Positions 1,994 to 4,471 of a DNA stretch of 39,287 nt are shown piece after piece (position 1 is the stretch's first letter; each line of letters starts with the position of its first letter). The position numbers and the translations under genes are program-made. Source of the DNA: Eubacteriaceae bacterium. GTDB lineage: Bacteria > Bacillota > Clostridia > Peptostreptococcales > Anaerovoracaceae. The notes beneath the pieces were generated by a model that did not search any database, had not been told where the DNA came from, and was given only the letters and a program-made list of their open reading frames with translations. The stretch is from NCBI GenBank assembly GCA_028727785.1, contig JAQYNQ010000113.1:1-39287 (forward strand). The letters are read 5' to 3'.

Positions 1994-2055
1994 CTAAAAT
2001 CATTGATAAGCTTTCACAAGTCAGATATAATTTAAGAGTTAAGGAGGTGCAATCA

Positions 2056-2589
2056 GTGACATTCGAGGAAAAAATCTTAGAATCTGAAATGATATACGAA
2101 GGCGCAATTCTAAACCTTAGAAAAGACAAAGTAACTGTAAAAACAGGTACAGCATATAGAGAAATAGTTGAACATAACGGCGGTGCGGTAGTAGTTGCAG
2201 TCACCGATGAGAACAAAGTGTTAATGGTCAAGCAGTACAGAGTTTCTGTACAGAGAGACGTTCTTGAACTGCCTGCGGGTAAAATTGACAGAGGCGAAGA
2301 TCCCATGGCAGCGGCTGTCAGAGAGCTTAAGGAGGAAACCGGCTACACACCGGGAAAGACTGTACATCTGATCAGCTCATATCCAAGTATCGGATACACT
2401 CAGGAAATGCTGCATATTTATCTCTGTACAGATCTTACACCGGGTGAGACGAACTGGGATGAAAATGAAATGCTTGAAATTTATGAGTATGATTTTGACC
2501 GGCTCATGGACATGATTGCCAGAGGTGAGCTTAAGGACGGTAAGACTCAGCTGGGACTGCTGATGGCTAAACAAGTACTTGGATTATAA
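2056..2589 (+). CDS. nudF: NUDIX hydrolase, ADP-ribose pyrophosphatase family
   Basis: Nudix box GKIDRGEDPMAAAVRELKEETGY; AAGGAGG at 2041-2047 favours the GTG at 2056 rather than the listed GTG at 2047, which overlaps the RBS. Confidence 0.85.
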   Translation: MTFEEKILESEMIYEGAILNLRKDKVTVKTGTAYREIVEHNGGAVVVAVTDENKVLMVKQYRVSVQRDVLELPAGKIDRGEDPMAAAVRELKEETGYTPGKTVHLISSYPSIGYTQEMLHIYLCTDLTPGETNWDENEMLEIYEYDFDRLMDMIARGELKDGKTQLGLLMAKQVLGL

Positions 2590-3043
2590 GTACTTCCAGA
2601 AAACTGGATGTTAACAGAATTCCAAACCCTGCAAAGTATGACCTGATTTTTGTGTTTTTTGATTTATCAAAACCTATAAGCAGCAGGTATGCATACACCG
2701 GAATTTTGATCAGGCTTCGCGGCAGAAGGACAGCCAGGCAGAGAATGAAGCTCTGTGTGAGCATAAGATGTGCTGCTGTGAATCCCAGGGCATAGGCTTT
2801 GCAGGCAACTATGAGAAAGTTTATGGGTAGGAGAACAGTGCTTCGTGCAAAGAGAAAAAAGGCAAGGACTACGAGTAAATCTGTACGGATGTACGACAGC
2901 AGATCCTGAAAAATGCTGCCGGAAGTACAGCCGGATATGAGCTTAGGAAGATCATCTGCAGGTAAAGCAATTCTCGTGAATACGCCGGCAGAAAGCAGGA
3001 TTACCAGTGTCAGTCCTGCAGAAACAATGATTTTTTTGTTCAT
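2567..3043 (-). CDS. SpoIIM-like multi-pass membrane protein
   Basis: 158 aa, several TM segments; 'NFLIVACKAYALGFTAAHLM...LAVLLPRSLIKIPVYAYLLL' resembles the SpoIIM core; location between nudF and a xerD-like gene matches the Bacillus nudF-spoIIM-xerD neighbourhood, but on the opposite strand. Confidence 0.65.
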   Translation of the reverse strand: MNKKIIVSAGLTLVILLSAGVFTRIALPADDLPKLISGCTSGSIFQDLLSYIRTDLLVVLAFFLFARSTVLLPINFLIVACKAYALGFTAAHLMLTQSFILCLAVLLPRSLIKIPVYAYLLLIGFDKSKNTKIRSYFAGFGILLTSSFLEVLIIQVLV

Positions 3044-3102: not shown

Positions 3103-3993
3103 ATGGAGATAAGAAAATTTATCGACTATTTAAAGGGAGAGAAAAAAACATCTGCAAACACATGTGATGCATATTTTCGTGATTTGAATGCTTTTCGCAT
3201 TTTTCTTACAGAACGCGGTGTGACAGATATGAGTGAGGCAAGTTCCGCGGATGTTGCCGCATATTTGATGACGTTGAAAAATGAGGGAAAGACGAGAGCT
3301 ACTGCAAATCGAAAATTATCTTCTATTAGAAGCTTTTATAAATATATGCAGAGACTTGGAGAGATTCAGGTTAATCCTACTGAGGATATTAAGTCGCCTC
3401 GCATTGAACGCAGAAAACTGGAATACCTGACTGTTGAGGAAGTTGAGCATCTGCTGGAAACTCCGGATGATTCCGTTAAAGGAATCAGAGACCGTGCAAT
3501 TCTTGAGGTTATGTACGCGACGGGAATCAGAGTTTCAGAACTTATAGAACTGAGAGTTCGGGATGTGAACTTCAGAATGGGTTTTGTCACCTGCAATGGT
3601 GAACACGGGCGTGCAAGAATTGTTCCTATGGGTTCAATAGCAAGACGTTCACTGGATGACTATATGCTAAAAAGCCGAAGCATTTTCATGGAGGGCAAGG
3701 ATGAGAAGAACCCGGATGGTCCTCTTTTTGTAAACTATCAGGGTGAGGCTTTTTCCAGACAGGGACTCTGGAAGGTTTTGAAGAAGTATGGCGAAATTTG
3801 CGGCCTTGGAGACAAGCTTACGCCGCATATTCTGCGCATAAGCTTCGGGGTACATATGGTTCAGAACGGTGCGGATCTGAAATCTCTACAGGAACTTATG
3901 GGAAATGAAGATATTATGGCCATGGAAATTTTCCTTTCTGTATCTAAAAATAGAATCAAGGATGTGTACGATAGAACACATCCGCGTGCATAG
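3103..3993 (+). CDS. XerD-like tyrosine recombinase with degenerate active site (predicted non-catalytic)
   Basis: 296 aa with N-terminal SAM-like and C-terminal recombinase domains ('ATGIRVSELIELRVRDVNF', 'LTPHILRISFGVHMVQNGADLKSLQELMGNEDI', tail 'KDVYDRTHPRA'). Catalytic Tyr position is Phe277, H270-equivalent is Asn268, core Lys position is Glu167. Confidence 0.85.
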   Translation: MEIRKFIDYLKGEKKTSANTCDAYFRDLNAFRIFLTERGVTDMSEASSADVAAYLMTLKNEGKTRATANRKLSSIRSFYKYMQRLGEIQVNPTEDIKSPRIERRKLEYLTVEEVEHLLETPDDSVKGIRDRAILEVMYATGIRVSELIELRVRDVNFRMGFVTCNGEHGRARIVPMGSIARRSLDDYMLKSRSIFMEGKDEKNPDGPLFVNYQGEAFSRQGLWKVLKKYGEICGLGDKLTPHILRISFGVHMVQNGADLKSLQELMGNEDIMAMEIFLSVSKNRIKDVYDRTHPRA

Positions 3994-4132: not shown

Positions 4133-4471
4133 ATGAACATTTTAGATGCAGTTGCACAGGATTATCTGAAGAAAGAAATCCCTGCTTTTAACGTTGGTGA
4201 CACTGTAAGAGTACACGTTAAAATTAAAGAAGGAAACAGAGAAAGAATCCAGAACTTCGAAGGTTTTGTACTTAAGAGACAGAACGGCGGAATCGCTGAA
4301 ACTTTCACAGTAAGAAAGATTTCATCCGGAGTTGGAGTAGAAAAGACTTTCCCTATTCACTCACCATGGGTTGAAGAAATCGAAGTTATCAGAAAGGGTA
4401 ACGTAAGAAGAGCTAAGCTGAACTACATGAGAGGCAGAACAGGTAAAGCTGCTAAAATTAAGAGCAAATAA
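4133..4471 (+). CDS. rplS: 50S ribosomal protein L19
   Basis: 112 aa; '[92 protein letters not shown]'. Confidence 0.98.

Follow-up and report, generated by a model that had tools for sequence, protein, structure and literature searches.

The 39,287-nucleotide stretch of DNA analyzed here (the window), which comes from a gut Clostridia bacterium, encodes a XerD orthologue (xerD') that is almost certainly catalytically dead and that is under strong purifying selection. We propose, seriously but tentatively, that this vertically inherited XerD has become a non-cleaving DNA-binding protein, which has ceded dimer resolution to an XerS-like enzyme and has kept the unloading of SMC.

Catalytic residues and locus of the XerD orthologue

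The ORF at 3103-3993 begins with ATG and encodes 296 amino acids without interruption. In an NCBIfam profile search, XerD (TIGR02225) was its best Xer family at 301.7 bits, compared to 254.8 bits for XerC. The match spanned residues 5-296 of the protein and positions 2-290 of the model, which is the whole model, at a score just under the TIGR02225 equivalog cut-off of 329.6. Alignment to E. coli XerD placed R148, K172, H244, R247, H270, and Y279 opposite R143, E167, H242, R245, N268, and F277, so that the catalytic set reads R-E-H-R-N-F compared to the canonical R-K-H-R-H-Y. This alignment bore out all six assignments made in an earlier sequence-only reading of this DNA, along with the spacings of 24, 26, and 9 residues between catalytic positions and the codons given for the three replaced residues (Table 1). 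The presence of RISF in place of RHSF, noted in the same reading, is also real; relatives carry RTSF or RNSF, which implies that the His of this motif had already changed family-wide.

Table 1. Features of the window and of the focal genome discussed in the text
Feature	Position	Strand	Basis
nudF (NUDIX hydrolase), conserved upstream neighbor	2047..2589	+	profile match, synteny
Membrane protein, sub-threshold SpoIIM match, divergent from xerD	2567-3043	-	profile match
xerD' (XerD orthologue, 296 aa, R143-E167-H242-R245-N268-F277)	3103..3993	+	ORF, NCBIfam profile, alignment
Glu167 (gaa), replacing catalytic Lys (E. coli K172)	3601..3603	+	codon read, alignment
R219-Q220-x-x-W223-K224, DNA-recognition helix	3757..3774	+	conservation across 134 sequences
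Asn268 (aat), replacing second catalytic His (E. coli H270)	3904..3906	+	codon read, alignment
Phe277 (ttc), replacing nucleophilic Tyr (E. coli Y279)	3931..3933	+	codon read, alignment
C-terminal tail, residues 282-296, ...KDVYDRTHPRA	3946..3990	+	majority-residue conservation
rplS (ribosomal protein L19), downstream neighbor	4133..4471	+	named from sequence and position; synteny with relatives
XerS-like recombinase, 375 aa	own genome C69:20803-21927 (L002 1144-2268)		profile match, position after miaA

Phe together with Asn or Thr, and with Glu or Gly in place of Lys, was found in three other separately assembled relatives whose proteins are 77-85% identical to that of the window. In a XerD tree built after removal of the active-site columns, these R-E/G-H-R-N/T-F assemblies and the window formed one clade (SH-aLRT 100). 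Sequencing error as the source of the Phe, Glu, and Asn residues was ruled out by the same Phe in three independent assemblies. The sequence-only reading had raised the prospect of close relatives with R-K-H-R-H-Y beside a relaxed copy here; instead, the genus sisters of the clade carry R-x-H-R-H-Y, in which Lys is gone and the second His and Tyr are present, and the copy in the window is not relaxed.

Loss of Lys extends well beyond this clade. Lys is missing genus-wide, and 46 of the 49 order-level relatives lack it; the commonest catalytic state in the family is R-E-Q-R-H-Y, and all six residues are kept in 1 of the 49 order-level relatives and in 17 of 135 clostridial copies. The catalytic Lys was counted from the conserved hairpin Arg, because hairpin indels make raw alignment columns misleading; counting in this way restored Lys in several lineages. 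Bacilli and other phyla contributed five XerD copies (L074, L080, L092, L095, and L107), all with a complete set. The second Arg is kept in all 135 clostridial copies and Tyr in 129 of them, which implies that most XerD proteins without Lys may still cut. Tyr was lost three times, each time within the family of the window (the window clade, G023, and G035). In several Lachnospiraceae (loci L104-L106, L108, and L111-L114), the XerD encoded at the nudF locus shows Arg changed to Lys and the first His changed to Cys, with the Lys hairpin deleted and Tyr kept; this pattern represents an independent erosion of the active site in a different style.

The gene had been assigned to a nudF/spoIIM/xerD locus. 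The nudF part of this assignment stands, and nudF also adjoins xerD in two Bacilli loci (L080 and L092). The spoIIM part does not, since the gene concerned lies on the opposite strand and its weak PF01944 match falls below the curated cut-off; among the loci compared, this membrane protein is confined to the genus. The position of the xerD locus is retained throughout the family.

Selection on xerD' and retention of its DNA-reading parts

The dN/dS check proposed in the sequence-only reading pointed to purifying and not relaxed selection: ratios within the clade were ≈0.05-0.09 in pairs with computable dS, where dS was saturated or nearly so and the figures are accordingly rough. The pN of XerD was ≈1.6-2.5 times that of the XerS-like enzyme in the clade, and 1.5-1.9 times in genus pairs that keep Tyr; the XerS-like protein shows slower amino-acid change than XerD. 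The closeness of the clade ratio to that of the Tyr-keeping pairs implies that loss of the nucleophile brought no neutral drift.

Conservation was high in parts of the protein that read DNA or meet other subunits. Of the stretches tested in the family, the C-terminal tail was the best conserved, with a majority-residue conservation of 0.91 compared to 0.67 for the whole protein; the C-terminal helix of Xer enzymes touches the neighboring subunit. In the recognition helix, R219 and Q220 were found in 134/134 aligned sequences, W223 in 133/134, and K224 in 132/134. The equivalents of K224, which are K290 in XerH and H225 in E. coli XerD, contact a base of the site (PMC5241119). The window protein has these four helix residues and the HPRA tail of the XerD family, and the two phosphate-binding Arg residues, the recognition helix, and the tail stayed fixed while the active site eroded. 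An AlphaFold2 model of the protein had a pLDDT of 88, with XerA and XerD as its top PDB matches; at a pTM of 0.64, the placement of the two domains relative to each other is less sure. Catalysis is abolished in Cre K201A and blocked in Cre Y324F, and both mutants still form synaptic complexes (PMC4381057), so that DNA binding without cutting is expected for a dead XerD.

Purifying selection, fold, recognition residues, tail, and kept locus give good support to the earlier suggestion of a retained pseudo-recombinase that perhaps binds DNA without cleaving it. A pseudogene was rejected on dN/dS and the conservation pattern; the intact ORF had previously been taken to argue against simple decay.

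The XerS-like recombinase and the search for dif

The focal genome (1.93 Mb, 98% complete, 137 contigs) encodes only three tyrosine recombinases, which are xerD', an integrase-like protein (contig C76), and a 375-amino-acid XerS-like protein (C69). Unlike in XerCD-dif systems, there is no XerC partner among these three, nor is there an intact XerD. A true XerC or XerD elsewhere in the genome, as envisaged in the sequence-only reading, was thus not found, and the XerS-like enzyme is present instead. Like XerS of streptococci and lactococci, the 375-amino-acid protein is a single, complete tyrosine recombinase. XerS was its best named family, but unlike XerS itself, it scored 153.5 bits, below the XerS cut-off of 267; judged by this profile match, it is best described as XerS-like rather than XerS. 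Its gene overlaps the end of miaA, with a YnbB-like gene of the methionine gamma-lyase family next downstream, an arrangement conserved through the order. Because of the overlap with the upstream miaA, a recombination site cannot lie between those two genes.

Of 61 relatives, 56 carry the XerS-like gene, 55 of these 56 in a single copy; among good assemblies, it is present in 43 of 44. R-K-H-R-H-Y was present in 30/30 complete copies (30 rows including the query; one further copy was cut off). This universality and the complete active site suggest that the XerS-like enzyme resolves dimers, and we found no description in the literature of the miaA-linked XerS-like gene as a dimer-resolution candidate. 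All three Tyr losses of XerD fall in genomes with the XerS-like gene. The XerS-like gene is present without XerD in eight order-level genomes, most of which are 96% complete or better, which implies that the XerS-like enzyme does not need XerD. An exception is G047, which has a XerD with R-N-Q-R-H-Y and no XerS-like match.

A general rule that presence of the XerS-like gene means an eroded XerD was weak. In the class sample, where absence of XerS-like denotes no match at E ≤ 1e-30 to the protein of the window genome, the XerD active site was intact in 3 of 57 copies with and 14 of 78 copies without the XerS-like gene (p = 0.035, uncorrected). The other 64 of these 78 also lack the full R-K-H-R-H-Y, and three or more active-site changes were equally common with or without the XerS-like gene. 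Erosion of similar depth where there is no XerS-like match implies that replacement by the XerS-like enzyme is not the whole story. Where XerS-like is absent and XerD still has Tyr, XerD may be active, or another recombinase may be used.

Pattern matches to canonical dif in 61 genomes, whose assemblies are fragmented, were no more numerous than those to a reversed control, and the sole exact match in the 137 contigs of the focal genome lies inside a coding sequence; this pattern search of those genomes demonstrated no XerD-type binding site. In one family member, G026, whose XerD reads R-A-Q-R-H-Y, an intergenic near-perfect palindrome (TTTACATAATAACGTATTATGTTAACC) lies at ≈1930-1960 of locus L266 (G026 C1:384500-388500); with XerD-type arms on both sides, it is a good candidate for a dif-like site.

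A possible role in condensin unloading and its alternatives

SMC unloading by B. subtilis XerD is reportedly independent of the catalytic residue, XerC, and dif (the work of Karaboja et al. in 2021). B. subtilis XerD (RipX), which is orthologous to the window protein and shares its family and nudF-xerD neighborhood, serves both in dimer resolution and in SMC unloading; by contrast to the window protein, which has lost its active site and any XerC, it recombines actively in a pair with XerC. In the second of these roles, it acts as a site-specific SMC unloader at the terminus (PMC8242196, PMC12322038). The window protein is a vertically inherited orthologue of this bifunctional protein, here minus the recombination half.

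A different arrangement is found in streptococci, where XerDL is encoded beside scpA-scpB and lacks the full catalytic set, and XerS resolves dimers. XerDL is shorter and belongs to a separate family, whereas the window protein has the full length of XerD and resembles it throughout. Against NF002685 (245 positions), which we take to be a model of the streptococcal XerDL group, it scored 46.6 bits compared to a cut-off of 178.

Condensin (SMC) unloading seems to us the most likely single role for the dead XerD, at a little under an even chance. ScpA and ScpB are encoded on contig C77 of the focal genome. ScpA scores separate 24 order-level genomes outside the family by the presence of XerD: they are at most 102 bits in the 8 that lack XerD and at least 114 bits in the 16 that have it (p = 1e-4, kinship ignored; RNase HII control, p = 0.19). 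The eight XerD-less genomes thus have the eight lowest ScpA scores of the 24, including one without ScpA and ScpB. The contrast agrees within three families (f2, f3, and f12), and the association as a whole represents a small sample of ≈five family-level groups. ScpB and the XerS-like protein shift in the same way, more weakly, which implies that part of the ScpA association may be general lineage divergence. In most of the 16 XerD-bearing order genomes outside the family, xerD and scpA share a strand and lie within ≈15 kb of each other, a proximity that may be old synteny. It does not extend to the family of the window, where xerD lies away from scpAB wherever both were placed; two genomes of the family, at 92% and 86% completeness, encode XerD with no ScpA or ScpB detected. 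In G060 (order-level, 99% complete), the XerS-like gene is present and none of XerD, ScpA, and ScpB was detected.

We suggest that the XerS-like enzyme, encoded after miaA as a single copy with a full active site, would resolve chromosome dimers alone, and that the chemistry of XerD would then no longer be needed. Erosion of the active site went in steps, beginning with Lys in most members of the order, followed by the second His and Tyr in the focal clade. The dead XerD would still bind XerD-type half-sites and would unload SMC-ScpAB from the chromosome arms in the terminus region.

The same evidence of retained binding without cutting would also fit a role unrelated to SMC, either in regulating transcription locally or in organizing the terminus in general. 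P. aeruginosa XerC Y272F keeps a non-enzymatic role in pyocin control, where a transcriptional role has been proposed (PMC9431673). Non-cutting roles of this kind, as a repressor or terminus organizer, are possible, but they do not predict the ScpA association, and we regard them as rather unlikely. That the dead XerD serves as a non-cutting partner of the XerS-like enzyme, assembling the synapse or ordering cleavage like one subunit of XerC/XerD, would suit the co-occurrence of the two genes in most of the order and the exceptional conservation of a tail used in subunit contacts of Xer synapses. However, this partnership is improbable given that XerS and XerH act alone, that the eight XerD-less genomes keep the XerS-like gene, and that G047 has XerD with no XerS-like match.

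Continued decay toward loss, in a relic not yet frame-shifted, has in its favor that several order-level genomes have no XerD, so that loss is tolerated in some lineages; given the low clade dN/dS (with dS near saturation), orthologues free of internal stops, and an almost invariant recognition helix, we consider it very improbable. We give even less credence to the view that the protein, at least in the Tyr-keeping relatives, still recombines DNA by means of an unorthodox active site. The near-constant Tyr and invariant second Arg of clostridial copies would agree with activity, and a minority of tyrosine recombinases have Gln or Tyr at the position of the first His (PMC4381057), but the window protein lacks Tyr, Lys, and the second His, and Phe cannot attack a phosphate.

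If the condensin-unloading proposal is true, a lineage in which XerD stays under selection with Lys, His, and Tyr gone would show SMC unloading alone to be sufficient for upkeep of the gene. As a naturally cleavage-dead XerD, it is a test case for condensin release. It is conceivable, though we would not count on it, that in much of the class Clostridia XerD no longer serves recombination and has specialized as a sequence-specific non-cutting DNA-binding factor, probably a condensin unloader, with lineages at successive stages of loss and one group, which includes the focal genome, without the nucleophile; this would amount to a natural separation-of-function experiment, in which a non-recombination role alone sustains XerD. 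The automatic label "site-specific recombinase" on clostridial XerD is unsafe, and the widespread, little-described XerS-like gene after miaA probably encodes the dimer-resolution enzyme of the whole order.
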